The position numbers and the translations under genes are program-made. From a virus, in IMG/VR virus record IMGVR_UViG_3300023500_000010, positions 1-41,963 of that record: DNA of 41,963 bases. The stretch is one strand, 5' to 3'. Numbering within the stretch: position 1 is the first letter of the stretch; every line of letters starts with the position of its first letter. Shown one piece after another: positions 1,917 to 41,963 of the stretch. Under the pieces are notes generated by a model that saw nothing but the letters and a program-made list of their open reading frames with translations, made no database searches and had not been told where the DNA came from.

Positions 1917-2438
1917 ATGAGAGCTAAACAGTACACCAAGCGACCTGCATATCTGCGCCTTAACTCAATCCGTAGCTTAATGCTGGTGGGCTTGATGGCT
2001 AGTAGCCTACTGCTCAACGCATCTACACCTGAGAAGGCGTATCAGGCCAACTGGTGCGATGGGCAGACGGAGTATCGGCTGCTTGACGCAACACGGGTGG
2101 ATTGCTTGACCGACAAGCGAGCTATAGAGTTTGATTTTGATAGCAAATGGGCAGAGTCCATGACGCAAGCCCTTCATTACGCCCGTATAACTAATAAGCG
2201 AGCAGCGGTGGTACTGATTGAGCGGTCTAACTCGTATATGAAGCACTTCCACCAACTAAAGCGGGTCATCGACTACAGCAATTTAGCGGTAGATTTGTGC
2301 TTAATCAGTAAGACTGGCCGTTATCTACTCGGTACTGCCCGTTCAGGGTGGTGCGTACACCGAACACTGGAGCCTAAACAGCGAGCTAACTGTGTTAGCT
2401 GCCACCAAGAGATCGGAACTAAGATAGCTATACCATAA
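1917..2438 (+). CDS. exported PD-(D/E)XK nuclease-like protein with CxxCH
   Basis: Product of 173 residues. A basic N-terminus is followed by a hydrophobic segment (about 21-34), which looks like a signal peptide or anchor, so the rest is probably periplasmic. The body has a restriction-endonuclease-like pattern: D62 in TRVDCLT, E71 and K78 in AIEFDFDSKW, then a helix and a buried strand AAVVLI. Small secreted bacterial proteins with this arrangement are familiar to me but their substrate is not settled. Near the C-terminus CVSCH (159-163) fits the heme c-binding motif CxxCH, or a metal site. The start at 1917 is preferred over 1908 because GGA (1905-1907) lies nine bases upstream of 1917 but touches the ATG at 1908. 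A strong terminator follows. Confidence 0.55.
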   Translation: MRAKQYTKRPAYLRLNSIRSLMLVGLMASSLLLNASTPEKAYQANWCDGQTEYRLLDATRVDCLTDKRAIEFDFDSKWAESMTQALHYARITNKRAAVVLIERSNSYMKHFHQLKRVIDYSNLAVDLCLISKTGRYLLGTARSGWCVHRTLEPKQRANCVSCHQEIGTKIAIP

Positions 2439-2592
2439 AGTCTCTAACACCTAAGCCATCTATACTACTTTAGTTGAGGTACTAAATTTATTACACTTAA
2501 TAAATACTATACCAGCAGGAAAAAGGTATTCTAGGATTTATTAAGTTTAATTAGTTCTTGACAGAGAGGCCGGTATTCCGTAAGCTTGATCG

Positions 2593-2674
2593 GGAAGGCA
2601 GGAAGCCATCAACTCCTTAAGACGTGTGTGAATTTAACCCCAGCAGTTGCTCCCAACTTCTGGGGTTTCTTTTT
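2593..2674 (+). ncRNA. candidate small RNA ending at the terminator
   Basis: TTGACA at 2558-2563 is followed, 17 bp on, by a weak -10 (TAAGCT, 2581-2586). A transcript from about 2593 would end at the strong terminator 2636-2674, giving roughly 80 nt with no coding frame. The 3' end abuts the stop codon of the oppositely oriented terminase gene. The weak -10 makes this tentative; the stretch may just be the 3' untranslated region of the upstream gene. Confidence 0.25.
2636..2674 (+). terminator. rho-independent terminator of the left arm
   Basis: Stem AACCCCAG paired with CTGGGGTT, continued by an inner stem AGTTG/CAACT around a CTCC loop, then TTCTTTTT. It ends rightward transcription of the early arm just before the convergent terminase gene. 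Confidence 0.88.
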
Positions 2675-2679
2675 GCCTG

Positions 2680-4377
2680 TTATAAACTGATTCCGCCTAT
2701 AACCTGCGCTGACTGCGCCCCGTGGTCACGGGCTTCTCCGGTGCTGTAGACCCGTTCGAGCGAGCGACCACTGATAAGGTACAGTAGGATATATTGCACC
2801 ATGTAGCGGGTAGCATCGGCACCGTGGTTCCAGTGCGCCCGACGAGGGTGTGTATTCCATGTGTTCGCTGTGTCGTTCCACTCTTTCGTATACTTCAACA
2901 TGCAATCGCTGATATAGCTACACTTCTTATCCAGATGTACGAAGGGCATAAATGCGCGGACGTTCTCTATGCCGTTCAGCAGGCCACTTTTGGGTAGGAT
3001 GGTGGTCTGAGTAAGCCCTCTGCTGTTCAAGATGTCCTCACGGCTCATACGCTCCTCTGATGAGATGTCCTTGACAGCCGCATCATGGGGTAAGCCCACA
3101 CGCGCAACTTGCCATCCCCTCCGTTCGACGATCTGGTGAAGGACATAATCGGCGTAGAATCCAATGAACTCCCCTGAGTTGTAATACTCCCCGATGATCC
3201 GCACACTGGGTACCCCGTCTAGCCCCTCAAAATATTGGAAGAACAGCAGCACTGTTAGATCATTCACGCCGATGTCGGCCACCATGTGTACTGGTAAGGC
3301 AGGGTCATATAGATCTTCTACTACGCGGTCAAGCCGCACCACATACTCAAGGTACCTCCGCGCCCAATAAGTGCCGTCTTTCGCTGCTGCAAAGGCTTCC
3401 TCTGGTGTTGCTGGGTACTCTTGGTGGATGTCGCCTTCCAACTCCCTGTGCTGGGAGACCCAGAAGTATTTTTGGTGCAGGCTTAGGTTAATGCCGTGCT
3501 TGGCCTTGAGCATGTCGAAGTAGTCCAGAGCCTTCTGGTCAATAGGCTGCTTGATGGTCTCAAGGCAATCTGGGTCGGTATGCCAAGGTAAGAAAACCGG
3601 CATAAAATCTTTTCCAGACAGTTCTTGAGCTGTCGCTTGCAGGCTGACTGCTGTATCCCACATAGTCTTGAAATCGTTGGCACCTTCGGCGGTTGACTCA
3701 ATGGCACCGATATTACCGGCTTTCAGGGTTTGCAGGGTGCCGGTCTTGGTCTCTCTGGCTCTCCGAGGGTTGTCATTGGCAATCTTGCCGAATTCGGAGA
3801 TGTGGAGGCGTTGCAAGGTGGCCGACCGGAAGCTGGTACGAATGAAGATGGAGGAGTTGTTTGTATAGCTACGCTCTGTGGTGTTTTTTGTCTGTACTCG
3901 TAGGTCAAGGAAGCTTAAGATTGCAGGGTCGAGGGTATCCCACAAGGTTTGCACCCTATCCAGCAGTGTAGCGGCCTCTGCCTTACCTTGAGCCATAAGG
4001 CCGCACTTAAGATTAGATCTAGTGAGGGCATCATCGTTGAATGAGACCAAGAAGTAAGTGGAGATCCCTTGTTGGCGGCTCTTTAAGATGATTAGCCGCC
4101 AATGCTGGAGGAGATACGAATGAACTACAAACTGCGCTCTGTTCATCTTGAACTCCACCAGATCGCCATACTTATTAACCACTGAGTACAGGTTATTCAT
4201 TCGCCAGAGCTTTGACGGTAGGTACTTCTCTATAAGCTCACCCTCTGTGCGTGGTTTGCTGTTAAGAAGCTCCCATAGATCGGATCGGTTGTTGAATAGT
4301 TGTAGGAATTCTTCCTCTCCTATGGCTGGCATTAAGTAACTACCGCCGTTAGCAGGAATGTAGAGAAGCTTACCCAT
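2680..4377 (-). CDS. terminase large subunit
   Basis: Product of 565 residues, a normal length for the packaging motor ATPase/nuclease. Seen: a Walker-A-like KSRQQGIST (99-107), Walker-B-like LHISEFG (191-197, catalytic Glu 195), and a C-terminal RNase-H-type nuclease with Asp in MVADIGVND (D368), the VGLPHDAAVKD segment (D432) and HGADA (518-522). Known role: it binds the portal, translocates DNA into the prohead and cuts the concatemer. It is the last gene of a leftward operon of RHH protein, small terminase and a membrane protein, and overlaps the membrane protein gene by 46 bases. The ribosome-binding site is weak, so translation may be coupled; ATG 17 codons further in is an alternative start. 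The gene is antisense to the structural block, which is unusual. Confidence 0.93.
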   Translation of the reverse strand: MGKLLYIPANGGSYLMPAIGEEEFLQLFNNRSDLWELLNSKPRTEGELIEKYLPSKLWRMNNLYSVVNKYGDLVEFKMNRAQFVVHSYLLQHWRLIILKSRQQGISTYFLVSFNDDALTRSNLKCGLMAQGKAEAATLLDRVQTLWDTLDPAILSFLDLRVQTKNTTERSYTNNSSIFIRTSFRSATLQRLHISEFGKIANDNPRRARETKTGTLQTLKAGNIGAIESTAEGANDFKTMWDTAVSLQATAQELSGKDFMPVFLPWHTDPDCLETIKQPIDQKALDYFDMLKAKHGINLSLHQKYFWVSQHRELEGDIHQEYPATPEEAFAAAKDGTYWARRYLEYVVRLDRVVEDLYDPALPVHMVADIGVNDLTVLLFFQYFEGLDGVPSVRIIGEYYNSGEFIGFYADYVLHQIVERRGWQVARVGLPHDAAVKDISSEERMSREDILNSRGLTQTTILPKSGLLNGIENVRAFMPFVHLDKKCSYISDCMLKYTKEWNDTANTWNTHPRRAHWNHGADATRYMVQYILLYLISGRSLERVYSTGEARDHGAQSAQVIGGISL

Positions 4378-5022: not shown

Positions 5023-5173
5023 CTGCCTGTTCCTTTTCTTTCAGCAAGTGCAGCCCTTGTAGCACATAGAAGCTGAAAGATCGCCCACTGGCAGCGGCTT
5101 GTGCCTGTAGAGCTTCGATCAATTCGTGATCTGTTCGTTTCTTCGCAGAGAAGCTGTAAGTTTTAGCTGCCAT
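5006..5173 (-). CDS. ribbon-helix-helix (Arc/CopG-like) DNA-binding protein
   Basis: Product of 55 residues, below the usual ORF length cut-off. Layout: strand KTYSFSAKK (4-12), helix DHELIEALQAQAAASG (15-30), turn RS, helix FSFYVLQGLHLLKEKE (33-48). This strand-helix-helix spacing is that of the Arc/CopG family, which bind operators as dimers through the strand. AGGCGGG lies a few bases before the ATG. It is the first gene of the leftward packaging operon and overlaps the small terminase gene. It is the only clear candidate transcription factor I find in the phage, so it may regulate its own divergent promoter region or the TTAGCTAA-type sites, or it may help DNA recognition during packaging. 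Those roles are inference. Confidence 0.7.
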   Translation of the reverse strand: MAAKTYSFSAKKRTDHELIEALQAQAAASGRSFSFYVLQGLHLLKEKEQADASRK

Positions 5174-5192
5174 GATCCCGCCTAAAAAGGCT

Positions 5193-7674: not shown

Positions 7675-7833
7675 TGCTATAATCCGTGTATAGCATGTGT
7701 ATTCCGCTTGTCGCTACAACATGCAAGTAGCCCCTTAGACTGATTTTTAGTTGCTCTACTTGCGTATTCAGCAACGAGAAAAGTAAGCCGTGGTGCTGTA
7801 AATGACCCAATCAACTTATTTAGGATGCACATT
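7675..7833 (+). promoter_or_regulatory. capsid gene promoter and structured leader
   Basis: An extended -10 (TGCTATAAT, 7675-7683) directly after thyX has no good -35. It overlaps an inverted repeat, TGCTATA (7675-7681) and TATAGCA (7689-7695). Further down, GCAAGTAG and CTACTTGC (about 7732-7764) form an 8-bp inverted repeat, and GTTGCT/AGCAAC nearby could pair as an alternative. The leader is about 145 nt long, and AGGA lies eight bases before the capsid ATG at 7834. It suggests a strong, possibly regulated capsid transcript. Confidence 0.5.
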
Positions 7834-8979
7834 ATGGCTACCGCTGCCTTAGCATTGAACTCCGCCCTTATCCGCAAAAAGTGGATGCGTGAAGGCTTAC
7901 TCCAAGCCGCCTCACAAAGTTTTTTCTCCCCCTTTACCGGCAGCAGCCGTAAAAGTATCGTCTACCAATCAACCAACACTTCGGCTAAAGAAGGCCATAC
8001 GGTGACGTTTGATTACAGTGGCAACTTGTCTGGTCGCGCTCGCAAGAACAAAGAAACTGCCTACGGCACTGGTGAGACCAAGAAACAGTTCAGTGAAACT
8101 CTGACTGTTGATCGCTATCGCCTTGTGGCTGGTAACGGTGACGCTTTTGACGGTGTTGAAATTGGTAATCTTGAGCTTACCCAGCACAGCGACTCCCGTG
8201 CAAAACTGGGTGATCGTTTCGTTCGCTTCAAAGATCAAAGCTTGTTCGATGCAGGCCAAGGCACTTTGGCTGTCGGCGGTGCTGTTAAGGCTCCGACCCA
8301 TGTTATTGACCTAGGTACTGTGTTTGACTTTGGTACCTTGATCAATATCGAGAAGACCCTTAAGACTTCTCAAGGCTATATTGGCGGTATGCGCCGTCCT
8401 CCTGATCCCTACATGACTAAAGACGGTCGCCCCGTCTGGTTGTTCATTGCTGATGCGGCCATGTTAGCCAAACTGCGCCAAGACACTGCTGGGTGGCAGA
8501 CTGTTGTCAGTCAAGCTGATGTTCGGGGTGCCAGTAACCGCTTGTTGCAAGGTGTTGTTGGCCGTGTTGGTAACTTGCTGATTATGGAAGCTCCTAGCTT
8601 CTTCGGTGATACCGATGGTTCGGTGGCTGGTTGGGGTATGCAGGCTTCCGATGTTGAGATCTCTGGTCTGCGCCAATATTCAGGTGCCAGTGCAGCTACC
8701 GCCCTCTGGTCTGGTCAAGCTGGGTTTGACCCAGCAGCAGGTAGCTTGCATTCTCGTGGCATGATCTTGGGTGCCGGTGCATTACAATTAGCTATGGGAA
8801 AACAGCCTGATTACAAGTTCCAAGCGTCTGACGATTTTGGGATTACTTCCGAGTCGGCTGTTGAGTTTTGGATGGGTACCCAGAAGTCTAATATGACTGC
8901 GGAACAAGGCGACTACAAACAGGCTAAGCTTGGTGGAGTCGATTATGGTTGTATCGCAGTTGATTTGCAGATCAACTAA
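7834..8979 (+). CDS. major capsid protein (N4-gp56/DUF4043-like)
   Basis: Product of 381 residues. The N-terminal part follows the N4-gp56-type capsid pattern: helix with RKKWMREGLL, an FSPFTG loop, then YQSTNTSAKEGHTVTFDYSG and a glycine-rich E-loop-like segment with a TLTVDRYR strand. The middle is a mixed alpha/beta body with GMRRPPDPYM and a conserved-looking VWLFIADAAMLAKL helix. It should build the icosahedral shell. The start at 7834 is chosen over 7825 because AGGA is eight bases before it but touches the earlier ATG. A very stable TTCG hairpin follows the stop, as is common after highly expressed capsid genes. Confidence 0.85.
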   Translation: MATAALALNSALIRKKWMREGLLQAASQSFFSPFTGSSRKSIVYQSTNTSAKEGHTVTFDYSGNLSGRARKNKETAYGTGETKKQFSETLTVDRYRLVAGNGDAFDGVEIGNLELTQHSDSRAKLGDRFVRFKDQSLFDAGQGTLAVGGAVKAPTHVIDLGTVFDFGTLINIEKTLKTSQGYIGGMRRPPDPYMTKDGRPVWLFIADAAMLAKLRQDTAGWQTVVSQADVRGASNRLLQGVVGRVGNLLIMEAPSFFGDTDGSVAGWGMQASDVEISGLRQYSGASAATALWSGQAGFDPAAGSLHSRGMILGAGALQLAMGKQPDYKFQASDDFGITSESAVEFWMGTQKSNMTAEQGDYKQAKLGGVDYGCIAVDLQIN

Positions 8980-20819: not shown

Positions 20820-23800
20820 TGGACGAGACTACGCTCCAAGCAATAATGAGCGAAACAGGTGCTAGTCGGGAGCAGGTGATGGCGTACCAGCAGTCCCGAC
20901 AAGCGCCTGCTCCTGCTGCTCCTGCTGCTCCTGCTTCTCAAGCTCTGGACGAGACTACGCTCCAAGCAATAATGAGTGAAACAGGTGCTAGTCGGGAGCA
21001 GGTGATGGCGTACCAGCAGTCCCGACAACCTGCTCCTGCTGCTCCTGCTGCTCCTGCTGCTCCTGCTGCTCCTGCTGCTCCTGCTGCTCCTGCTGCTCCT
21101 ATGGCTTCTGCTGCTCCTGTAGCTCCTGCTGCTCCTATGGCTTCTGCTGCTCCTGTAGCTCCTATGGCTTCTGCTGCTCCTGTAGCTCCTGTAGCTCCTA
21201 TGGCTTCTGACCCTCAAGCTCCTGTAGCTCCTATGGCTTCTGACCCTCAAACTCCTGACCCTAGGATCGCGGCTTTAGACGCAGAAGCTAGGCAGCTACA
21301 CTCTGATGGACTGTCGTTCGGCGCGATTGCGGAGTACCAGAAGCCAGCCGGTGGTGTGGATTACAGTCAGATAACTGAGGCTGATCTAGCCCGTCCAGAC
21401 CCCGCCCTTGCCAATACCGAATTCGATAACCCTGATTTACCTTTTTGGCCGCCTACCGATGCGTTTGCCTTGTTAATGGCTAATAAGAGCATGTTGCGTG
21501 ATACCGTAGTGCTGCAACGAGCTAAAGCTCTGGGTGTTGACCCACGGACTACCGCCGGTGTTAACGCGGTATACTATACGGAGTCCATGCGGGATGCAGG
21601 TGCGGGTGCAAGTGCGCGGATTGCAGAGTTAGAAGTTACTCGCAACTATGAAAGCATGTATGAGGATGTAGGTTCCCTTATGAGCGGCGACCTAGCCAGA
21701 TTGGTAGCTGACAGGACTGTTGCTAATAAAGAGTATGTTGCAGGGGTACTGGCTAAAGAGGGGTTGCCAATCAAGATTGTGGACGGTGAGTATGTACTCA
21801 CTGACCCTGAATTTCCTGATCGGAAGGTAACACCTGATATGTGGGACGATATAGCAGCAAACCCAGCAGGGCTAGCCCTTGCAGCGGTTAGTGGTGGTGG
21901 GGTCTACCGTTACCTCTTGAAGAAAGGCTTTCAGCTAACCGCTGCAACTATGGGTGCTTACGGCACAGCCGCCGTAGGCGCAGCAGCAGGTTCGCAAATT
22001 GATTATGCTATCGCGTTAAAAGATACCCAAGAGGAAGTTAGCCTTAAACTAGCTGTTGACAAAGCCGGTGGTGCAGCTATGTACAGCATTGTTGGCGGTG
22101 TTCTAGGTGCGGCGACTGTTAAAGGGTTAATCGGGGCGGGGTCATATACTGCTGACAGTTTTAGGTTTCTTGCTAAGGCTGTTCGGACTATGCAGCTTGA
22201 CAAGGCTACTCAAGCTATAGCTGCCTTGTACCCCGATATTACACCCGCTAAGAGGGCGGAGATTGTCCACGCTATCGAGACGCAGTTAGGTATCCCACTA
22301 CGCGGTAATCAGCGAGAGAAAGAGCTTGTCGCTATGACCATGACGCAGAGGGGTGGGATCACTACCATGCGACATTCGGAGACGTACAGCACAGGTACCG
22401 TTGACAACTTCGCGCACCTCGCTATCCAACGAGGGAAACAAGTAACAGCCCTAGCTGAATCTCTGGATGGTAAGGTTACAGGTACGGCTGTCAGTGATGC
22501 ACTAGAGGCGTACAAAGTTCAAGTGGGCGCGTACTTCGAGACGACCAAACAAGGTGGGGCTAAATTAGCTCCGTCTACCTACACATTTAACCCAAGCCAG
22601 TTAGCTACATCGGCATTTACGCAGGCTTCCAGCCCATCTTTAGCTGATTGGGTCTTGCCTTCAGCCTTTACGCATATGGCACATACAGGTGACAAGCTAA
22701 AACTGTCAGGTACAGCCCGTGGTCAGATCCGTGCGATCAGCCAATTGCTTAATAGTATACCTAAAGAAAATAACAGCTTTGGTGGGCTGCTACACTTAAG
22801 GCAAAAAATAAATGCAGAGACGTTTACCGATGCAGGCGGCACTACACGCACAGGTGCCGATCTGAAAAATGTTATTACGGCGATTGATGAAGAGATTGCC
22901 TCGGTAATCAAAGCCAACCCACACATGGCCGATTGGGGTGTCCAGTGGCAGCGAGCCTTAGATGTTTATGGTGAACAAGCTGCTCTGGTCGCTACCGCTG
23001 TAGGGCAGACGCTAAAGAAGGGTAATCTCTCCGAAGATGCAGCCGCGAAGCTGCTTCTTGACAATGCGGAGAATGTGAACAGCGTGTACCGGCGTGTGGT
23101 GTCCTCAATGACCCCAAAACGTGCCGCGCATGTCGAGATGTCGATGATAAATAGTGCTGTTAAACGCGCCACCACGTCTGATGGGGCAATCAACTTCGCA
23201 GAGCTTCGAGCTGCTTTGAGCTTTAGCCCCCGATCTGTGCAGGGTACTAAGTTTAAATACATGGTCGAGCAATTCGACGATCTAGTGAAGTCAGACCACA
23301 CTATGGGGCAGTTTAAAGGTGTTACGAAGTCCCAAAGTGACGGGGATAGAACGCTAGCGACCTCCCTGCCTGGCTGGTTCAAGCGCAAAGCCCTTTCGTT
23401 TATGCTATCCACCGCATCCACCTTCCAGTCCGGTTCAGATATTAACCACAAACTGGTTGCACGGGTATTCGCCCGTTTGATGAAAGACCCACTGAACGCT
23501 GATTTGTCAAAGACCTTGACCAAGCAGCTCTCTAGCCACCCTGATATATTGCAAACGGTTCGAGAGGTGCAGCGGGTGACAGCGCAGCAGGCAGCAAACA
23601 AACAACACGCGAATAGCCCTACGTTTAGTTTTGCTTCAAATGGTACCGGTACACGCCTAAACCTTGCAGTCACTAAAGATGGTAAGGGTTTCGTTGTGGT
23701 GGACACACCCGCGAATCGGCGCAGTAATACCCGTGAAATGTTCCCTGCTTCGCAGGTACTCACAGAAGATAAGTTTGCTGTTCGCTTCGGCGTACCTAAG

Positions 23801-32945: not shown

Positions 32946-35210
32946 TCACACTTCGTCAAAATCACCGCTGATTGCTATCAGCCGTTGCTCATCCCGATAC
33001 CAATTCTGTAGCTGTGGTATCGTGTATTTAAACGATTTAGCCCCTTTGTGTGTCGTGGCACTCTTGGCAAAGGCGATAAAAGCTTTTGACAGTCCTCGCT
33101 TTGTACCTGCATCATCGGTGAGTTCAAGGTACAGCTCTAGTAGATCATGCTCATAGACGATACCTAGGTCGGCATACTTTAATATACCTGTGTAACCATA
33201 CAAAGTAGCCTCTGCCTGAAACTCGGTGAACATGCCGTGGTGTAGCAGGTACGCCATGCGCTGACCGGCTGAATACATAGACGCTAACAGTAACCGTTTT
33301 TCCTGTGTTGCTGGTGGCTCCATGTACTCGTCGAGTGTTAGTTCGTCCACCTGTGTTGCCAGCCAGTAACAAAAATCTACTGTCTCTGATTCCATAGCCG
33401 CCATGACCGTTGCCAAACCTCCCGCCTCCGCAACCCACTCTGCCTCACCTAGTTTGTTAGGTGTGTTGCAGTACGCCACGCGCCTGTCGTCATGGTCAAA
33501 CGTGAGGGGGTTTTTGTTCGCGGTCATAATGAATGTGACGTTGTGATTGTAACTAAACGAATCTGTACGCATAAGGCGCACATCAATGGATTGTTTACCC
33601 GTGTATGCCTTGAGTTTACCTAATGCCAGCTCCTTATCCTCGTAGCGCGTGAGTTGGTTGCCGTACTCGTCAAGTTGGACAAAGTAGGTATCAAGCATAT
33701 AGCCGTTGTACACCTCCAAAAACCCCTTAGCTGATGGGGCAGACGTAGATGCCTCTCCCATGATGCGTTGGATCAACTTAAAGAGCGTGTCTTTACCCGA
33801 CCCCGATGCACCTATTAAATAGATAACAACTGGAGAATATTCAAAGCGGCTAAATTTACGTTTTAGGAACCCTAAAATATACCGGCGCATGGTGGGGCAG
33901 GGGATCAAGGTCTCTAGGTACTTGATCGTATTGTGTGGGCGGCTGTACCTGCTGGCATATACTGTAGGGTTACGCAGCACTGACAGTGCCGGTGTCGGGT
34001 TGAACGTATTAAACGCAACATCCTCTGCGCCGAAAAATCCGTAGTCCCGTGACGGGTCTGCACCTACATCGACCAAAGGCAACGCCAACTTTACAGCAGG
34101 CTTTTTAGGCGTGGATAATGCAATAGACTCTATATGCTGGTACATAACATCAAACCGGTCAAATTTGATGTGTTTAGCGGCTACTGGGTTGATGAGGTAA
34201 TACAGCATTCGGGCAGGATCGTAGAATGCCTCAATCAACTCCTTGCGTTTTGTAACTAACGATAGGCGGGAGCTTTGCCACGCCTCATCATACTGCCAGA
34301 TCACTACGCCATCCGCGTTGCTACGCGCCTCAACCATAGGGTCAGTAATCGTGGCCTCGAATTGCCGCGTGGCCATAGGCGTAGAAAATGAGCTATTAAC
34401 GAAACTCATAGCCTGCAAATACAGCTCTTCGTCGATGCTACAATCAGCCCCTAAAATAGCAGAGACCTTGCTTAAATACTCGCTACCCCGCCCCTCTGGT
34501 ACATCGTCGGGGTGCAACCAGCCATTGGCAACATAGGTAGGTAGATCACGAAAATCTTTGGGTGTAATGACCTTAAACAGCGGCTTGTTAAGCTGCTGCG
34601 TCAGAACCATGTTCTGCACCTGTGGCTGTAGATGCAGTGTCCAAGTTTTCGTGGCCTGTGTTAGCATTGACGCTGTAGACTGCGTAGGTTTCAATGCCAA
34701 CACCAACGCCTTCACAGCAGACGGCATGGGTTTCAGCAGATCCAGAGTCTCTGCTGTGAGTGGCACTTTTGTCTTGTTAGCTGAGGTCGCGGCATAGATA
34801 AACCCATTATCAGCGTAGTAATCTAACTGCACGGCACTGTCTGCCCGTTTATACGTTGTCGCTACGTCCTGCTCATACTGGTACAGTATCGTGAGAGAGT
34901 CGATAGGCTCTCCGGCTGCGTCCATCTTGCCTACACCTGCAAACACAACAGGGTAATCAGGGTCTAGTGACCTAAACAGGTTAGATACTACTGTGCTGTC
35001 GCAGTCTATCGCAACAAACCCGCTATGAATGCCTGTGAGGAGGCCGCCTAGTACGCTGTCTTTAGTAGACCGCTCACGGGAATGGCGTTCTCTCCAATTA
35101 GCCTGAAATACAGGTATTGATTTTTTGCCTTTTGCATCGCGGACAAGCTGCCCTTCCAGCGGAACCGTCCAGTACCCTCTATCAATAAACGGCTGTAATG
35201 ACTCAATCAT
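32946..35210 (-). CDS. primase-polymerase / SF3 helicase
   Basis: Product of 754 residues. The N-terminal half has a primase-polymerase (AEP)-like core: GFVAIDCDS (64-72) and VQLDYYADNGFIYAATS (127-143). The C-terminal half is an SF3 helicase: Walker A GASGSGKDT (467-475), Walker B VQLDEY (511-516), motif C TANKNP (563-568) and arginines DDRR (574-577). It primes and unwinds DNA for the polymerase. Its ATG overlaps the upstream small frame stop (ATGA). Confidence 0.88.
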   Translation of the reverse strand: MIESLQPFIDRGYWTVPLEGQLVRDAKGKKSIPVFQANWRERHSRERSTKDSVLGGLLTGIHSGFVAIDCDSTVVSNLFRSLDPDYPVVFAGVGKMDAAGEPIDSLTILYQYEQDVATTYKRADSAVQLDYYADNGFIYAATSANKTKVPLTAETLDLLKPMPSAVKALVLALKPTQSTASMLTQATKTWTLHLQPQVQNMVLTQQLNKPLFKVITPKDFRDLPTYVANGWLHPDDVPEGRGSEYLSKVSAILGADCSIDEELYLQAMSFVNSSFSTPMATRQFEATITDPMVEARSNADGVVIWQYDEAWQSSRLSLVTKRKELIEAFYDPARMLYYLINPVAAKHIKFDRFDVMYQHIESIALSTPKKPAVKLALPLVDVGADPSRDYGFFGAEDVAFNTFNPTPALSVLRNPTVYASRYSRPHNTIKYLETLIPCPTMRRYILGFLKRKFSRFEYSPVVIYLIGASGSGKDTLFKLIQRIMGEASTSAPSAKGFLEVYNGYMLDTYFVQLDEYGNQLTRYEDKELALGKLKAYTGKQSIDVRLMRTDSFSYNHNVTFIMTANKNPLTFDHDDRRVAYCNTPNKLGEAEWVAEAGGLATVMAAMESETVDFCYWLATQVDELTLDEYMEPPATQEKRLLLASMYSAGQRMAYLLHHGMFTEFQAEATLYGYTGILKYADLGIVYEHDLLELYLELTDDAGTKRGLSKAFIAFAKSATTHKGAKSFKYTIPQLQNWYRDEQRLIAISGDFDEV

Positions 35211-35712: not shown

Positions 35713-36261
35713 ATGGCTCAAATTTTACAACGCTTCGTGCTGATCAATGACGCACTACAAGCAGCAGCCGAAGTTGGCGCGTCCGTTGCTGAAGTGTACC
35801 CAGCATTGTTGACTATGATGCAAGCACAGCGCAGTAACAGCACTACTGTACTGCGTAACGCGGATAAGGTTATCACCCACATTCGGTGCGCGTACCACAA
35901 ACGATATGAGCCTGTTGCTCCTCTCGGTACCTCTGATGAAGACATTGCAGCCCTTGGTTTGGTGAAGTTCGGGCGTAAAGCAACCTCTGCCCACGGTTAC
36001 GCCCATGCGTGTGCGGAAGGTATCAATCAGCAGGCTACCCAGAAGCGCACTTCGAAACGCGAACTTGCCTCCATCATGGATGGCATCCTAGATGGCTCTA
36101 TCGACCGTGCGGATGGTAGTTTAATGCGAACCAACAGTTTAGCAGTAGCCGCTATTATCATTGATCGCGCTGACGGTGCAGGCTACGAAGATGCCGAAGA
36201 CGCGAAAGCCACTTGGGATGGGGTGGCCTTCGAAGACCCCGAATACCGCGAAGAAGACTAA
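35713..36261 (+). CDS. hypothetical protein in a stand-alone transcription unit
   Basis: Product of 182 residues that I do not recognise. The N-terminal two thirds is helical (LQRFVLINDALQAAAE, then a Lys/Arg-rich helix near 95-120); the C-terminus is very acidic (EDAEDAKATW ... EDPEYREED). It has its own promoter (35630-35658), GGAG nine bases before ATG 35713, and a strong terminator (36281-36307). The self-contained, monocistronic layout is typical of moron or regulatory genes. A start at 35698 is rejected because it lies before the ribosome-binding site. Confidence 0.55.
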   Translation: MAQILQRFVLINDALQAAAEVGASVAEVYPALLTMMQAQRSNSTTVLRNADKVITHIRCAYHKRYEPVAPLGTSDEDIAALGLVKFGRKATSAHGYAHACAEGINQQATQKRTSKRELASIMDGILDGSIDRADGSLMRTNSLAVAAIIIDRADGAGYEDAEDAKATWDGVAFEDPEYREED

Positions 36262-36280
36262 GCACACCACCAAAACCAAC

Positions 36281-36307
36281 AAAGCCCTCTAATACGAGGG
36301 CTTTTTT
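36281..36307 (+). terminator. rho-independent terminator
   Basis: AAAGCCCTC-TAATAC-GAGGGCTTT followed by TTTT. It is a strong perfect 9-bp stem and has A-runs on the other side, so it may work in both directions. Confidence 0.88.
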
Positions 36308-36325
36308 ATTATAGGCGTTAACTAA

Positions 36326-36979
36326 ATGAATCATGCAGAGTACGATGCTGCGTATGAGATACTGACCACCTTATTACCCATGCAGGATGAGCTGAACCAA
36401 AAAACCCAAGATACCTTAGACGCAGATAAACCTTGGCGCAGTGTTAACCGGCCTTGGGCGCGGTACTTGTATATGGAGGCGGCGGAATTAGCTGAGGCTC
36501 TAGGCGGCTGCCACTGGAAAACGGCTCCCGACATCAGCGTAATACAGATACAACTAGAGCTAGTGGATCTGCTCCACTTTAGCTTGTCCTATCACATGCA
36601 GTGTGATGATAACCTAGAGAAAGTGCTGGCGCGTGATGTAGGTGACTTGACGGGATTGACGGCCTTGCAGCTATGTGATGTGTTGGTGTGTGTTAACAGT
36701 ATGGGGCAATCTGGTTTAGCGGTTATATTAGCATTAGCTAAAAAGTTGGGGCTAACTATGTTAGCACTAGGGCGTTTATTCACAGCTAAGAACGCCTTAA
36801 ATGAACACAGACAGGCAGGTGGCTACTCAAAAGGTGAGTACAAGCGAATCAACGGTGGTTTTGATGATAACCAAACCCTTGAGCGGGTGCTGGCCACAGA
36901 CGGGCTGCCACCAGACCTTCGAGAGTTCCGTACCGAGATTTTAAGCCGACTAGCCGACAAAGCCCCAAGCAACTTATAA
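36326..36979 (+). CDS. dimeric dUTPase (all-alpha NTP pyrophosphatase)
   Basis: Product of 217 residues. The dimeric dUTPase/MazG-like metal sites are visible: YMEAAELAEAL (E51, E54) and ELVDLLHF (E78, D81), with a substrate segment NEHRQAGGYSKGEYKRINGG (about 157-176). Reaction: dUTP to dUMP and pyrophosphate, which keeps uracil out of DNA and supplies ThyX. It follows the 35.7 kb unit's terminator and precedes the repeat region; no strong promoter is visible, so readthrough or an unseen promoter must serve it. Confidence 0.9.
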   Translation: MNHAEYDAAYEILTTLLPMQDELNQKTQDTLDADKPWRSVNRPWARYLYMEAAELAEALGGCHWKTAPDISVIQIQLELVDLLHFSLSYHMQCDDNLEKVLARDVGDLTGLTALQLCDVLVCVNSMGQSGLAVILALAKKLGLTMLALGRLFTAKNALNEHRQAGGYSKGEYKRINGGFDDNQTLERVLATDGLPPDLREFRTEILSRLADKAPSNL

Positions 36980-37077
36980 GGCTCACCTACTTTTGTAACC
37001 GGCTCACCCGCGTTTTTTATACCCCTTCGGACGTGCTGGTGGGCAGCTCGTTTTGTTACCCCACTTTTCGCCTTGCC

Positions 37078-37257
37078 AAAAAGATTTAGGCGGCCAACCC
37101 CAATTTTGTATCCGCAAAAAGATTTAGGCGGCCAACCCCAATTTTGTATCCGCAAAAAGCTTTAGGCGGCCAACCCCAATTTTGTATCCGCAAAAAGATT
37201 TAGGCGGCCAACCCCAATTTTGTATCCGCAAAAAGCTTTAGGCGGCCATCTCAAATT
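37078..37257. repeat. 38-bp tandem repeat, five copies
   Basis: Units at 37078, 37116, 37154, 37192 and 37230, the last truncated or divergent. Consensus AAAAAGATTT-AGGCGGCC-AACCCCAATT-TTGTATCCGC; units 3 and 5 have GCTTT instead of GATTT. Each complete unit contains GTATCCGCA, two mismatches from the DnaA-box form TTATCCACA. There are no spacers, so it is not a CRISPR. A likely candidate for an origin or partition site. Confidence 0.92.
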
Positions 37258-37289
37258 TTTGCTAGTATAAGAGGTGTATGGCGCGTGTC

Positions 37290-37333
37290 ATGGATCTGCT
37301 ATGGATCTGCTATGGATCTGCTATGGATCTGCT
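37290..37333. repeat. 11-bp repeat ATGGATCTGCT, four copies
   Basis: Four perfect 11-bp units, each with a GATC Dam-type site, followed by a partial copy. Their 11-bp period places the GATC sites one helical turn apart. TGGATCT is the reverse complement of AGATCCA, which I recall as the heptamer of the P1 plasmid origin. Confidence 0.92.
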
Positions 37334-37343
37334 ATGGGTCAGG

Positions 37344-37628
37344 CTACCCACGACAGCGATTTTTCCGCATTCGTGACAGACTCCGCTTAGTAGGGTTTGC
37401 GGCTACCCACTGAATCAGAGAGTCCCGACACACCACCAGCCCCGTGCGGTGGTCGAAAATGCGTACTGCGTAGCGGTGTAAATCACCCCGCCACAGTGGG
37501 CTGGTGCTATCCAACACCGTGCAGACCTCCCGCCATGTGCGGCAGTGCGCTTGCGGTCTATAGGGGGTGTAATAAAAATCCCCTTCGGCGTACCCTACCC
37601 CTGCCTGCTGCTCTATAGTGTAACTCAT
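37344..37628 (-). CDS. right-arm family protein A (RTGLVV family)
   Basis: Product of 94 residues. It shares with B, C, D and F the N-terminal MSYTI, then RTWREVC, the FDHRTGLVV core (about 58-66) and a basic C-terminus MRKNRCRG. Relative to C and F its 3' end is shifted by a frame: the DNA still reads TGGGTAGCCTG, but in another frame, so it lost the LPW-A ending. Own promoter at 37661-37689. Function unknown. Confidence 0.62.
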   Translation of the reverse strand: MSYTIEQQAGVGYAEGDFYYTPYRPQAHCRTWREVCTVLDSTSPLWRGDLHRYAVRIFDHRTGLVVCRDSLIQWVAANPTKRSLSRMRKNRCRG

Positions 37629-37660
37629 CTATTTGCTCGCTCTGTTGTGTGTGTGCGGTC

Positions 37661-37689
37661 AGTATAAACAGGTTAGCTAATGACCGCAA
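37661..37689 (-). promoter_or_regulatory. arm promoter for gene A
   Basis: TTGCGG (37684-37689), 17-bp spacer with ATTAGCTAACCTGTT, TATACT (37661-37666) on the minus strand. Upstream lies a 16-bp perfect palindrome (37698-37713). Confidence 0.78.
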
Positions 37690-37697
37690 GCACTAAA

Positions 37698-37713
37698 TCC
37701 CGTTTAAACGGGA
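37698..37713. promoter_or_regulatory. 16-bp perfect palindrome TCCCGTTTAAACGGGA
   Basis: Sits just upstream of the -35 of promoter A. Its sequence differs from TTAGCTAA, so it may be a site for another factor. Confidence 0.65.
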
Positions 37714-37751
37714 CTCAATGCTTCTATCTACGGCTGAGGTCTCCTTGTAGC

Positions 37752-38033
37752 CTAGGCTTCATGCGCCCACGGGAGGGTTTTTTTAGTCATTTTAGTCATG
37801 TGTGTATCAGGGTTTTCGGTCTCCCAGTCTGTGATATTCTCGCGGAACACCACAAGCCCTGTGCGGTGGTCGGTAATGCGGAAATCGTAGCCGTACCATA
37901 GGGGGCTACTACTCTGGTCTAGTTCATGGCAGACTGATAACCACGTACGGAACTGCGTTTGTGGCCTATAAGGTGCATAGTAGGGGCGGCCATCGTTTGT
38001 ACTGCCGTCGTGTTGCTCTATAGTGTAGCTCAT
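37752..38033 (-). CDS. right-arm family protein B (RTGLVV family)
   Basis: Product of 93 residues: MSYTIEQ start, FRTWLSVC, DFRITDHRTGLVV (about 50-62) and a C-terminal KKTLPWA. It has its own promoter (38069-38096). The paralogues differ mostly between the conserved blocks. Function unknown. Confidence 0.62.
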   Translation of the reverse strand: MSYTIEQHDGSTNDGRPYYAPYRPQTQFRTWLSVCHELDQSSSPLWYGYDFRITDHRTGLVVFRENITDWETENPDTHMTKMTKKTLPWAHEA

Positions 38034-38068
38034 GTTAGTTGCTCGCTCGCTCTGTTGTGTGAATGGTC

Positions 38069-38096
38069 ATTATAACAGGTTGGTTAGCGTGTGCAA
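38069..38096 (-). promoter_or_regulatory. arm promoter for gene B
   Basis: TTGCAC (38091-38096), 16-bp spacer ending AACCTGT, TATAAT (38069-38074). The leader retains CATTCACACAACAGAGCGAGC before the ATG, close to genes A, C and D. Confidence 0.78.
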
Positions 38097-38143
38097 CCGC
38101 TAACTAGCCTGTTTTAGCCATTTTGTGTGAATGGTGGTGGTGG

Positions 38144-38419
38144 CTACTTGCAGGCTGCCCACGGGAGGGTTTTTTTCCTCATTTGCCTGCACGTTTTTGG
38201 GTAGTTGGCCGCTACCCACAGACTCACGGAGGATTGGGAGACCACCAGCCCCGTGCGGTTGTCGCAGATCCTAAATTCGCGGCCATACCATAGGGGGCTA
38301 CTACTGCATAAAGCGGCGCAGACCTCCAGCCATGTGCGGTATGTTGCAAAATGGACGTATGAGGCGGCGCATTTTTCGCAACGGGGGTGGCCGTTTTGTT
38401 GCTGAATTGTGTAACTCAT
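38144..38419 (-). CDS. right-arm family protein C (RTGLVV family)
   Basis: Product of 91 residues: MSYTIQQQNG, YRTWLEVC, EFRICDNRTGLVV (about 48-60) and MRKKTLPWAACK at the end. Its ATG immediately follows the stop of D; the last four codons of D double as the leader of C. No promoter of its own, so it is probably read with F, E and D. Function unknown. Confidence 0.62.
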   Translation of the reverse strand: MSYTIQQQNGHPRCEKCAASYVHFATYRTWLEVCAALCSSSPLWYGREFRICDNRTGLVVSQSSVSLWVAANYPKTCRQMRKKTLPWAACK

Positions 38420-38695
38420 CTATTTGCTCGCTCTGTAGGTGGTGGGGTCAGTCCACGGAAGGGATTTTTTCGGCATCCGCCCCACGCGGCGGTATGGGTA
38501 GCCTATGTTAATCCACTCTACAACGTCTGCTCGCATTACTACCAACCCAGTGCGGTTGTCGAGGATTCGGAATCTAGAGCCGCACCAGATGAGGCTATCG
38601 CTAACACTCAGGGCGCGGCATACCTCCCGCCATGTGCTATATCGGCTATAATGCGTGTAGTAATCCCCGCCCAATTTCTCTACCGTGTACCTCAT
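38420..38695 (-). CDS. right-arm family protein D (RTGLVV family)
   Basis: Product of 91 residues: MRYTVEKLGG, YSTWREVC, FRILDNRTGLVV and KKSLPWT near the end. The last codons (Arg-Ala-Ser-Lys-stop) have the same DNA as the untranslated leaders of A and B. This shows that the family cassettes were duplicated and rejoined. It follows E closely and is probably in the same operon. Function unknown. Confidence 0.62.
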   Translation of the reverse strand: MRYTVEKLGGDYYTHYSRYSTWREVCRALSVSDSLIWCGSRFRILDNRTGLVVMRADVVEWINIGYPYRRVGRMPKKSLPWTDPTTYRASK

Positions 38696-38727
38696 CTATT
38701 TGCTCGCTCCGTGGCTAGTGATTAAAG

Positions 38728-38997
38728 TTAATCGTTAAAGAAGCAAAAATGGGGCTTTTCCTGTGCCTGCATACGCAAGGCAGTAATGGCCTTTCTTGGG
38801 TTTTTGATATAGAACGTGCGCGTGTGCGCCTCATATTTTGCGCTACCATAACAGATTTCAGTACATCTATTCCCTGAAATCAATACCCGTCTGGGAGCAT
38901 CTTGGGGTAAATAGGTATCGAGGGTTGCGGTTAACGGCGCGGGCTGCTTAGCTACACGGGCTGCTTTCTGTTTTCTGTTTTTTCGCATATTGCTCAT
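38728..38997 (-). CDS. small basic right-arm protein E
   Basis: Product of 89 residues, unrelated to the RTGLVV family. The N-terminus is very basic (MRKNRKQKAARVAKQ), the C-terminus aromatic (HFCFFND). AAAGGA is eight bases before the ATG. Its leader keeps fragments of the arm promoter (AACTAACC and ATTCACACAC) but lacks the -10 box, so it likely depends on the F promoter. Function unknown. Confidence 0.55.
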   Translation of the reverse strand: MSNMRKNRKQKAARVAKQPAPLTATLDTYLPQDAPRRVLISGNRCTEICYGSAKYEAHTRTFYIKNPRKAITALRMQAQEKPHFCFFND

Positions 38998-39042
38998 GGT
39001 AAAAATCCTTTGCCCCCATAAGGGGCGTGTGTGAATGGTTAG

Positions 39043-39321
39043 TTACTTGCAGGCTACCCACGGGAGGGCTGCGGCCTGTACCTGCCGCAAATGTGGTAGC
39101 ACTGGTGGGGAGCCTGCCTCTATAGCATGCCCCTGAATGCACAGCTCGGTTAGGTTCCGATTGTCGGTAATGCGAAAATTAGATCCATCCCAGAGCAGGC
39201 TATTGACGCGCTCCAGCTCCGTGCAGACCGCCGACCATGTTCGATAGGTAGAAAAATAAGTGTAAGAGGGGGTTCCATCGGGGCGCAGGCTACCGTTCTG
39301 CCTCTGGATAGTGTAGCTCAT
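39043..39321 (-). CDS. right-arm family protein F (divergent RTGLVV family)
   Basis: Product of 92 residues. The first 60 residues match the family (MSYTIQRQNG, YRTWSAVC, FRITDNR), but RTGLVV is replaced by NRNLTEL and the middle is different before the family ending ALPWVACK. It may be a recombinant or decaying copy. First gene of the probable F-E-D-C operon with its own promoter. Function unknown. Confidence 0.58.
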   Translation of the reverse strand: MSYTIQRQNGSLRPDGTPSYTYFSTYRTWSAVCTELERVNSLLWDGSNFRITDNRNLTELCIQGHAIEAGSPPVLPHLRQVQAAALPWVACK

Positions 39322-39354
39322 TTTTATTACTCCGTTGTTGTTAGTGTGTGGGTC

Positions 39355-39383
39355 ATTATAAACAGGTTAGTTAGTGACTGCAA
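39355..39383 (-). promoter_or_regulatory. arm promoter for gene F
   Basis: TTGCAG (39378-39383), 17-bp spacer with CTAACTAACCTGTT, TATAAT (39355-39360). It is nearly identical to the promoter of gene J and has GGAG in the leader. Confidence 0.8.
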
Positions 39384-39406
39384 GCACTAACTAACTATTA
39401 TTTTGC

Positions 39407-39481
39407 TTATGGTCGGCGTTCCGCCTTTACTAACTTAAATAGATCCCATAAGCCGCGCATTACATCGAGGACAAATAGCAT
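39407..39481 (-). CDS. 24-residue peptide behind a double operator
   Basis: Short frame with GGAG in the conserved leader position. The peptide MLFVLDVMRGLWDLFKLVKA plus ERRP is an amphipathic, basic-ended helix, possibly membrane-active. Its promoter carries the two best copies of the palindrome GTTAGCTAAC. It may be an autoregulated peptide. Real translation is unproven. Confidence 0.42.
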   Translation of the reverse strand: MLFVLDVMRGLWDLFKLVKAERRP

Positions 39482-39515
39482 TTTTATTACTCCGTTATTG
39501 TTAGTGTGAACGGGC

Positions 39516-39557
39516 AGGGTAACACGTTAGCTAACGATTACAAGCGTTAGCTAACGC
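39516..39557 (-). promoter_or_regulatory. promoter with two perfect GTTAGCTAAC palindromes
   Basis: TTGTAA (39538-39543), 16-bp spacer and weak -10 TACCCT (39516-39521). CGTTAGCTAACG (39525-39536, 12 bp) and GCGTTAGCTAACGC (39544-39557, 14 bp) are both perfect, with centres 20 bp apart, about two helical turns. They flank the -35, as in a repressed promoter. Confidence 0.72.
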
Positions 39558-39823
39558 TAGGTCAGGGGTTTTTGCCCCTCCGCTAGTGGCCATAATAGGT
39601 ACAGATTGCACGAATTACAGATCTTGAGCCGCTGAGATCTTAACAGCGTAAAACCGGTTGAGCCACAGACGCACGTTTTAGTGCTGTACCCCATCGGCTG
39701 CGCTAGTTGGTAGTGTCTAGCTAGGGGCTGCACGTTAGCTATAACAAAAATATTATTGTCCTCATCCTGCACACGCTGGAGCAGCGGCGCGTCTCGCAAG
39801 TGTGTTAGCAATTTAAACTGCAT
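39557..39823 (-). CDS. zinc-ribbon-like right-arm protein G
   Basis: Product of 88 residues. Four cysteines in CVCG (C51, C53) and CNSC (C69, C72) fit a zinc ribbon; the N-terminal half is ordinary alpha/beta. Start 39823 has GAGG nine bases upstream and overlaps the end of H. Possibly binds nucleic acid or a protein partner. Its stop overlaps the operator at 39544-39557 by one base. Confidence 0.55.
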   Translation of the reverse strand: MQFKLLTHLRDAPLLQRVQDEDNNIFVIANVQPLARHYQLAQPMGYSTKTCVCGSTGFTLLRSQRLKICNSCNLYLLWPLAEGQKPLT

Positions 39824-40181
39824 TTTCTGCTGCCTCATAGTTAGCGAGGGTGTACCAGCGGATCAGATTTTTGCAGACTGCTGTAATGTCTGCAATCCCG
39901 TCTAACTCTGCGTTGTCCTCGTCGTCATCCTCGTGGATGTCCCTCACCTCTGACAGCAGGTAAAGTAGCGGGACATCCCCCGCAAAAGCTGCCACTTCGA
40001 GGCGGCGTAGCAGCCGATACAGCAGGGGGCTAGCCCCGTCTGTTGTATCGGCGCGGTAGCCTCTGTTATAGGTTGGATAGTTACCCGATTTGTCCATTAA
40101 CCACTGACCCCGTGTAATAACGGCGATTAAATCGCCATCGGGAATGTGTAGGGTCAAGCTGCGTTGCTGGTGGTGGCTCAT
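39813..40181 (-). CDS. hypothetical right-arm protein H with acidic segment
   Basis: Product of 122 residues with an acidic run DIHEDDDEDNAELD (about 81-94) and otherwise helical composition. GGAG precedes the ATG. It has a different type of promoter (40244-40272) from the arm cassettes. Co-transcribed with G. Function unknown. Confidence 0.55.
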   Translation of the reverse strand: MSHHQQRSLTLHIPDGDLIAVITRGQWLMDKSGNYPTYNRGYRADTTDGASPLLYRLLRRLEVAAFAGDVPLLYLLSEVRDIHEDDDEDNAELDGIADITAVCKNLIRWYTLANYEAAENAV

Positions 40182-40208
40182 TTTACTGGCTCCTTTTGTG
40201 CGGCGTGT

Positions 40209-40224
40209 GCCGTAAAACTACGGC
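40209..40224. promoter_or_regulatory. inverted repeat GCCGTA-AAAC-TACGGC
   Basis: Perfect 6-bp arms with a four-base centre between the H promoter and the H start. It could act as an operator or form an RNA hairpin in the leader. Confidence 0.6.
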
Positions 40225-40243
40225 GCAAGGCACCTAATTAAGC

Positions 40244-40272
40244 AGAATAAAAATCGTGTGCATTAGTTACAA
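40244..40272 (-). promoter_or_regulatory. promoter for gene H
   Basis: TTGTAA (40267-40272), 17-bp spacer, TATTCT (40244-40249) on the minus strand. It lacks the CTAACCTGT element, so H and G may be regulated differently from the neighbours. Confidence 0.6.
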
Positions 40273-40284
40273 TTGCACCAGATT

Positions 40285-40731
40285 CTAACACCTCGCATTG
40301 ATCAGAGCGCACGAGGTCTTCAAAACGCCCTCCCAATCTACGTTATGCTGGAGCCATGCGGGGACATCGTACCCAAGCAGCGAGCTACAGCAAGCTGCAC
40401 ATTCGGCGCGGCTACCTTGAAAAATCACAGCCTCCCCCAGCCGTCTCACTAGGTCGCCAGTGGCATCCACGCCGCCTATATCCACCAGCCAGGCTAATAC
40501 TTCTAGTTCTGTATCATCCAGCCCTTCCCAGATCTCAACCCACGCGCAGAGATCCCGCGCGGTGGTCAGGCTAACGCCGCTCCGTTCAAGCAACCGCCAT
40601 GCTGCCTCGTCATTCGTGGCATCGTGTGACGTAAACAGTACGACGCGGTCAGTAGCTACCGTTTTAGTTGCTGCGATGAGTTCGGCGGCTGTACCAATCA
40701 GGCCGCTATCTAAGTTTTTGAATTTAAGCAT
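40285..40731 (-). CDS. acidic right-arm protein I
   Basis: Product of 148 residues, helical and acidic (about 22 Asp/Glu against 12 Lys/Arg), with a segment LCAWVEIWEGLDDTELEVLA (about 72-91). The acidity and fold-like pattern recall DNA-mimic antirestriction proteins such as ArdA, but no ArdA signature is certain. GGAG precedes the ATG 40731. Own weak promoter at 40760-40788. Confidence 0.55.
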   Translation of the reverse strand: MLKFKNLDSGLIGTAAELIAATKTVATDRVVLFTSHDATNDEAAWRLLERSGVSLTTARDLCAWVEIWEGLDDTELEVLAWLVDIGGVDATGDLVRRLGEAVIFQGSRAECAACCSSLLGYDVPAWLQHNVDWEGVLKTSCALINARC

Positions 40732-40759
40732 TGTCTGAAGCTCCGTTTGTGTGTGGTCT

Positions 40760-40788
40760 AGTATAAACAGGTTAATTACTGGCAGCAG
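40760..40788 (-). promoter_or_regulatory. arm promoter for gene I
   Basis: Poor -35 (CTGCTG, 40783-40788) because it overlaps the last codons of J; then AATTAACCTGTT and TATACT (40760-40765). The rest of the cassette is conserved. Confidence 0.6.
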
Positions 40789-41234
40789 ATAACATACTGA
40801 CCGCATTCTACGGCGGTTCCGTCAGGGGCGAAGTGCGCCCCGTAGCCGTCACAAGCAGCGTATTTTTGTTGCAGTTCTTCCAAAGCCCCTTCATGACCTA
40901 ATATCAGTTCACCCAGTGCCTCAAACTGGCCGGCTTTTTGTATACCCTCGATGCACTCCGTGGATACATCGAGACAATCCGCCAGCAGCCACGGCATAAA
41001 ACAGCCCAACATATCGGGATCATCGCTTAATTCGATTACTTGGATTGAATCAATAACGCCCTCATCTATGAAGCGCAGATCTGAAACCATAAAATCATGG
41101 CTCCCTTGAGCTAATTGTTGTTCTAGCTCTGCTAGCTCTGACACGCTCAGGTAGGAAAGGTCTACATCAGCGGCTTTAAACGCCTCTATTTGGTCGGCTA
41201 CAAGTTGAGCAGTTTTAGCTATTTTGTGGTTCAT
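40776..41234 (-). CDS. highly acidic right-arm protein J (paralogue of K)
   Basis: Product of 152 residues with about 28 acidic and six basic residues. It shares with K the segment DLRFIDEG.ID, the helix around LGELILG and a nearly identical C-terminus GYGAHF.PDG.AVECGQYVI. Extreme acidity suggests a DNA- or protein-mimic role, such as anti-restriction or anti-defence, but this is inference. Start 41234 follows GGAG and the conserved leader. Confidence 0.6.
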   Translation of the reverse strand: MNHKIAKTAQLVADQIEAFKAADVDLSYLSVSELAELEQQLAQGSHDFMVSDLRFIDEGVIDSIQVIELSDDPDMLGCFMPWLLADCLDVSTECIEGIQKAGQFEALGELILGHEGALEELQQKYAACDGYGAHFAPDGTAVECGQYVICCQ

Positions 41235-41268
41235 TTTTTTGAAGCTCCGTTTGTGTGTGTGAATGGTC

Positions 41269-41297
41269 ATTATAAACAGGTTAGTTAGTGACTGCAA
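41269..41297 (-). promoter_or_regulatory. arm promoter for gene J
   Basis: TTGCAG (41292-41297), 17-bp spacer with CTAACTAACCTGTT, TATAAT (41269-41274). Its -35 lies inside the inverted repeat 41292-41318. Confidence 0.82.
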
Positions 41298-41318
41298 CAG
41301 CTATAATAGCTGTTGCAG
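41292..41318. promoter_or_regulatory. perfect 13-bp inverted repeat between K and J
   Basis: CTGCAACAGCTAT and ATAGCTGTTGCAG separated by one base. It overlaps the -35 of gene J's promoter. It could be an operator or a bidirectional hairpin that also ends transcription of K. Confidence 0.72.
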
Positions 41319-41326
41319 CAGATTAA

Positions 41327-41776
41327 TTACTGGCAGCAGATAACATACTGACCGCATTCAACGGCGGCTTTACCGTCAGGGGAAAAATGCGCCCCGTACC
41401 CTCTATGCCAAGTGTAGCTCCGTTGCAGCTCTTCTACTGCGTTGGGCTGGCCTAACAGCAGTTCACCGATACGGCGGAACTCGGCGGCGGCTTGTAGGCT
41501 CTCGATGTAGGCTAGGGGGTGGTTAAGTAGCCGCTGGACTAGAGTCCAAGGTGCGAAACTCCCTAGGTGATCTTGGTCGGCGCGTAATTCCTCGACCATT
41601 ATCAAATCTATAAAATTCTGATCTATAAAGCGCAAATTTGAGATTGTAAAGTCGAACGTCCCCTTAGCTAAATGCACTTTTAGTTCTGATAGCTCTGTAG
41701 AGTTGAGTCCAGACAGATCAACACCAGCGGCGACGAGGTGATCAGTTGTAGTAGTAGCTGTAGTAGTGTGGCGCAT
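41327..41776 (-). CDS. right-arm protein K (paralogue of J)
   Basis: Product of 149 residues. Thr/His-rich N-terminus (MRHTTTATTTT), then the J-like segments NLRFIDQNFID and IGELLLG, and the C-terminus GYGAHFSPDGKAAVECGQY. Less acidic than J. GGAG precedes the ATG 41776. It is the outermost gene of the right arm. Confidence 0.6.
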   Translation of the reverse strand: MRHTTTATTTTDHLVAAGVDLSGLNSTELSELKVHLAKGTFDFTISNLRFIDQNFIDLIMVEELRADQDHLGSFAPWTLVQRLLNHPLAYIESLQAAAEFRRIGELLLGQPNAVEELQRSYTWHRGYGAHFSPDGKAAVECGQYVICCQ

Positions 41777-41822
41777 TGTAACTCCGTGTTTGTGTGTGTT
41801 TGTGTGTTTGTGTGTGGGGTCT

Positions 41823-41851
41823 ATTCTAAACAGGTTAGCTACTAGGCGCAA
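41823..41851 (-). promoter_or_regulatory. arm promoter for gene K
   Basis: TTGCGC (41846-41851), 17-bp spacer with GTAGCTAACCTGTT, TAGAAT (41823-41828), followed by a long CACACAAACA-rich leader and GGAG. Confidence 0.78.
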
Positions 41852-41894
41852 GCTATTTATTCATTTATTTATTTGTTTATTTGTCTATTTGTTT

Positions 41895-41963
41895 GTGGTG
41901 GTCTGTGGTGGTCTGTGGTGGTCTGTGGTGGTCTGTGGTGGTCTGTGGTGGTCTGTGGTGGTC
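41895..41963. repeat. 10-bp tandem repeat GTGGTGGTCT at the right contig end
   Basis: Seven copies (the last one base short), reaching the last base. The left end also starts in GTG repeats, so the two ends may belong to one array. Confidence 0.92.

Follow-up and report, generated by a model that had tools for sequence, protein, structure and literature searches.

The genome of an uncultivated bacterial virus, IMG/VR record IMGVR_UViG_3300023500_000010, raises the question of what two adjoining tandem arrays near 37 kb are for. The whole record (41,963 bases, here termed the window) was analysed. An earlier note reported five 38-bp repeats adjoining four GATC-containing 11-mers, and proposed a replication or partition site. 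The repeats themselves are real (4.8 and 4.4 copies by TRF, with scores far above those of shuffled sequence). They occupy a non-coding junction between convergent genes, with the following features:

36980-37343, no strand: non-coding convergent junction with both arrays (ORF list, gap table)
37077-37259, no strand: array of 38-bp direct repeats (repeat finder; TRF, 95% match, score 331)
37290-37337, + strand: array of 11-bp direct repeats, ATGGATCTGCT (TRF, 100% match, score 96)
36986-37001, + strand: degenerate copy of the 38-mer core, CCTACTTTTGTAACCG (local alignment)
36326-36979, + strand: gene for a dUTPase/MazG-like NTP pyrophosphohydrolase (PF08761, E 2.7e-17; phrog_173, E 5e-15)
37344-37628, - strand: gene for an early protein of ~92 amino acids, member of a tandem family (translations compared)

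Over 30 dinucleotide-shuffled genomes the TRF score reached 55 at most, and therefore neither array is due to chance. Copies of the 38-mer (unit CAAAAAGMTTTAGGCGGCCAACCCCAATTTTGTATCCG) start at 37077, 37115, 37153, 37191 and 37229. The first four differ at a single variable position (A or C), while the fifth agrees with them in its first half and diverges after. Because the copies are nearly identical along their whole length, they appear to be recent, and no protected core stands out. The unit contains a weak 20-bp dyad, CCGCAAAAAGMTTTAGGCGG (p 0.017 in the C form, 0.13 in the A form). Every 11-mer holds the heptamer TGGATCT with one GATC, giving four TGGATCT units with an 11-bp period. The degenerate copy CCTACTTTTGTAACCG precedes the first array core by 113 bp (3 x 38 - 1), nearly in register, and is the sole further core match in the window at up to three mismatches; its alignment has a p value of 0.018, uncorrected for the testing of several flanks and strands. 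Its sequence hints at an older copy, and thus at an older array whose core may have persisted. A coding repeat is ruled out by the 38-bp period, which is no multiple of three. A terminator is likewise ruled out, as no intrinsic-terminator-like site is listed in 36980-37343 and the RNA folding of either strand of the arrays is no better than that of shuffles. An Rfam scan over 36000-41963 gave no match.

The junction (364 bp) is the second-largest gap of the gene list used, and is entered from the left by the pyrophosphohydrolase gene and from the right by the early gene at 37344-37628. The latter belongs to a tandem family of ~92-residue early proteins (MSYTIxxx...) that spans 37344-39321, and the translations suggest that, compared with its paralogues, its tail has shifted frame at an A-run. 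The shifted tail and the many tandem loci fit a weakly constrained region. Early genes on both strands are preceded by about ten copies of a promoter type, TTGCnn-17-TATAMT with the spacer CTANTAGCTAACCTGTT:

377, 1027, 1351 and 1460, + strand: early promoters
37677, 38084, 39371, 40776, 41285 and 41839, - strand: early promoters
39531, - strand: weaker early promoter

The replication genes match those of the KF-1/PH1-like podoviruses, with 39-47% (DNA polymerase) and 42-47% (primase) identity to Pseudoalteromonas phage PH1, Vibrio phage VPMS1, Edwardsiella phage KF-1, Dickeya phage Amaethon and two Manatee Spring genomes. The closest relative found, IMGVR_UViG_3300013233_000312 (G001), is syntenic with the window and shares 58% identity in the primase, 71% in the polymerase and 82% in the product of the gene at 7825-8979, which from its position is presumed to encode the major capsid protein. 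A scan of genome contigs recovered one distant relative only. Both ends of the window are simple repeats, (GTG)n at 1-52 and (TGTGGTGGTC)7 at 41894-41963, so that the genome is probably circular or permuted, its assembly having been interrupted within a repeat.

Neither array is conserved. No other copy of the 38-mer or 11-mer unit was found in the IMG/VR, phage or plasmid sequences searched, an absence that is weak for the 11-mers, which the low-complexity filter of the plasmid and phage blastn search may mask. The best 20-base matches of the 38-mer unit in six relatives fall within shuffled values, and repeats of TTAGGCGGCC occur elsewhere in three contigs, none resembling the 38-mer unit. 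Three TGGATCT units at a fixed 11-bp spacing recur in just one further IMG/VR contig (L164), in a short intergenic stretch, so that the heptamer array is no recurring origin module. A gapped TGGATCT pattern is present in more than 100 contigs and, among the matches listed, all but one have a 12-bp period.

The gene pair that lies inverted to the left of the array is found in one relative (L076), and an inverted dUTPase/MazG-like gene occupies the same place in another (L050). No array is present at either junction, the next gene overlapping by 9 bp in L076 and following after a 38-bp gap in L050. In MW202744 (L004) the matching junction contains an unrelated 21-mer array. The G001 contig ends 28 bp beyond the end of the matching gene; assemblies tend to stop at repeats, and the break is circumstantial evidence that a repeat could lie there.

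The most economical account is that tandem duplication, specific to this lineage, produced both arrays at a convergent junction that tolerates insertions, in a repeat-prone genome, a reading that we favour tentatively, with somewhat less than even confidence. Where convergent transcription units meet in a non-coding junction, insertions would be cheap, and one 38-bp and one 11-bp segment would have been multiplied there by replication slippage or unequal recombination. The window contains 17 distinct tandem-repeat loci with a score of at least 40, versus 2-7 in seven relatives (G001 being partial), and shuffled sequences contain a mean of 0.7 tandem arrays. Tandem repeats also occur inside genes (e.g. 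a 123-bp duplication at 20820-21062), and several of the neighbouring early genes are tandem paralogues. The arrays and their non-conservation are observed directly; that they arose by duplication of this kind, and have no dedicated role, we infer. Against tandem expansion, small phages seldom retain as much as 230 bp of useless DNA; the CCTACTTTTGTAACCG copy, the MW202744 array at the matching junction and the G001 break also count against it.

The main rival, possible though on balance doubtful, is that the 38-mers are iterons of a main or accessory origin, bound through a winged helix by the phage primase-helicase, which would load itself and melt the DNA; the GATC 11-mers could contribute a further step, either melting or one sensitive to methylation. 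The P4 alpha and PICI Pri-Rep proteins self-load and melt DNA at their own repeats. The candidate binder is encoded 1.9 kb from the arrays, which are non-coding and lie upstream of its gene:

32946-35210, - strand: primase-polymerase/SF3 helicase (profile search: phrog_19785, E 8e-239; NrS-1 primase, E 1.3e-17)

The 754-residue product has the PrimPol/SF3 layout. Its AlphaFold model (mean pLDDT 87, pTM 0.62) aligns with the C-terminal region of the NrS-1 protein (6k9c; Z 26, rmsd 5.5, 392 residues) and with SaPI5 Pri-Rep (Z 16-17), and D5 is also among the best matches. No P4 alpha chain appears in the VIA-align listing, which carries no weight. In the model the last 70 residues form a strand-helix-helix-hairpin, predicted to be a winged helix, and the SF3 helicase-primase with winged-helix tail expected of a P4/PICI-type system is thus present in predicted structure. 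This tail shares 44% identity with the G001 protein, versus 67% for the helicase core. Such divergence would be expected of a tail that tracks changing DNA sites, although divergent tails are common in any case. P4 alpha binds its origin repeats through a winged-helix-type domain (PMC4234260) and PICI origins bear iterons (PMC6092414), precedents that favour an iteron origin. Like P4 alpha and the PICI and SaPI Pri-Rep systems, the window combines non-coding direct repeats with a nearby SF3 helicase-primase and its predicted winged-helix tail. In PICI origins, however, an A/T-rich stretch separates two iteron sets immediately 3' of the initiator gene; the window has a single array, which lacks such a core and lies 1.9 kb 5' of the primase-helicase gene. 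A replication role of the arrays via the SF3 helicase-primase is possible, but nothing ties the protein to the repeats. The persistence suggested by CCTACTTTTGTAACCG also speaks for iterons; the absence of the array from relatives with matching neighbours speaks against them.

Several sequence features expected of an origin are missing. The DnaA-box-like GTATCCGCA of the earlier note differs from TTATCCACA at two positions, a distance that 137 sites in the window match or better; within 36980-37343 there is no DnaA box within one mismatch of TTATNCACA. Nor is the reported A/T-rich stretch borne out, as the AT content is 55.7% in the 38-mer array and 54.2% in the 11-mer array versus 49.8% for the genome. 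In 8% of all 100-bp windows stability is lower than in any at the arrays, and the three least stable start at 1705, 2458 and 87. The A/T-rich melting region that a P4/PICI-type origin requires at its repeats was thus not found; a conserved A/T-rich candidate lies instead 3' of the terminase gene. The 38-bp period is a non-integer number of helical turns. Skew, analysed at fourfold sites with a logistic model that included gene strand as covariate, gives no support: the best origin model lies near 31-33 kb and owes its place to TA skew, the score at 37 kb is 17 log units lower, and modelling of the relatives gave inconsistent positions, so that skew provides no usable origin position.

The likeness to the P1 plasmid origin holds in layout. 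In P1 oriR, read directly from NC_005856, five 19-bp RepA iterons with a 21-22 bp period are followed after ~40 bp by GATC heptamers (GGGATCT, TGGATCT, GGGATCT, TGGACCT and TGGATCT, 10-12 bp apart) and then by two DnaA boxes, beside repA. The window likewise has iteron-like repeats, a gap and then TGGATCT-type GATC units, alike in order, relative orientation and heptamer spacing, which favours the origin reading. The likeness fails in the DnaA boxes (two perfect ones in P1 oriR, none in the window gap) and in the helical phasing (21-22 bp in P1 versus 38 bp, or 3.6 turns, in the window); in addition, the window repeats are 38 bp long, unrelated in sequence and located between convergent genes. 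The statement that no Rep gene is visible is upheld for the genes searched: PHROGs, Pfam and NCBIfam profiles revealed no RepA-type initiator, like the one encoded beside P1 oriR, among the genes covered, namely the replication genes, the left-end genes and the early genes apart from some small ORFs.

Two Vibrio cholerae systems offer further comparisons. At oriII, RctB binds 11- and 12-mers, short direct repeats with a GATC in each (PMC2865523), a general form that the window 11-mers share; an RctB-like gene, in contrast, was not seen among the window genes searched. In the PLE satellites, semi-palindromic repeats of ~30 bp serve as iterons (PMC8263062) and are bound by a RepA_N-type initiator, whereas the window dyad is weak. 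The window contains 133 GATC sites, close to the 149-164 expected. A second cluster, four GATC sites within ~100 bp (5079-5177), lies at the start of the presumed small-terminase gene and immediately before it.

An improbable alternative is that the 11-mers and 38-mers are operators for a phage or host regulator around a leftward promoter at 37291-37264, through which the two + strand genes would be under antisense control. A promoter-like ATGACA-16-TATACT (10/12) is indeed present on the - strand exactly between both arrays, the 11-bp spacing would place the GATC units on one helix face, and the C form of the 38-mer has its 20-bp dyad. However, the region has 3 promoter-like sites versus 7.8 in shuffles, making the match weak; the site is without the GCTAACCTGTT spacer of the clear early promoters, and its transcription would be antisense only. 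A site for packaging (pac), partition (centromere) or recombination (resolution), with the repeats as binding sites, is more improbable still: loci of these kinds typically have tandem binding sites, but the genes searched revealed neither ParA/ParB, which leaves the earlier partition reading unsupported, nor a recombinase, and the terminase genes are ~7 kb away. Least probable of all is a lytic-phage origin that joins iterons of the NrS-1-like primase-helicase to a P1-like methylation-sensitive GATC array and that arose independently of RepA/DnaA control.

Tandem expansion at 37 kb thus remains the preferred reading, and comparison with the KF-1/PH1-like phages draws attention to a different locus. 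In many of these phages a conserved palindrome, TTAATAAATTTATTAA, lies 3' of the terminase large-subunit gene, a position shared by the window (2430-2680), L002-L008, L010, L012, L015, L021, L022, L025, L027, L028, L035 and others. Most relatives have at least one copy of AATAAATTTATT (with up to one mismatch) downstream of this gene, often in tandem units, and in many a GC-rich motif like GGACTGGCCCTAGCCC, read by eye, comes after the palindrome. In G001 no AATAAATTTATT palindrome directly follows the terminase gene. The window has a reduced form:

2455-2530, no strand: reduced AT-palindrome element 3' of the terminase gene, with TACTAAATTTATTA at 2480

The palindrome TTAATAAATTTATTAA is absent from 36980-37343, its nearest forms in the window being at 155, 1715 and 2480. 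The terminase-side arrays of the relatives, with tandem units of 16-83 bp, are non-coding like the window arrays. They differ in that they contain or flank TTAATAAATTTATTAA, whereas the window 38-mer, ~7 kb away, does not contain it. The relatives' arrays belong to a conserved non-coding element, so that function may be common among the arrays of this family, which counts against tandem expansion as the explanation at 37 kb. Next to the reduced element, between a + strand gene and the terminase gene, 2540-2670 carries TTGACA followed ~90-100 bp on by a hairpin with a T-run on the + strand, possibly a small RNA.

If an origin at the 37 kb arrays were true, it would show how PrimPol-helicase phages pick their replication start, and would bear on the gating of a lytic phage by host Dam methylation. 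For now the main use of the locus is as a caution, as iteron-like arrays in repeat-prone phages need evidence of conservation or binding. The comparison has also yielded, from sequence, a better family-wide cis candidate than the 37 kb arrays, namely the palindromes 3' of the terminase gene, which may act as an origin, packaging or control element in the KF-1/PH1-like phages.
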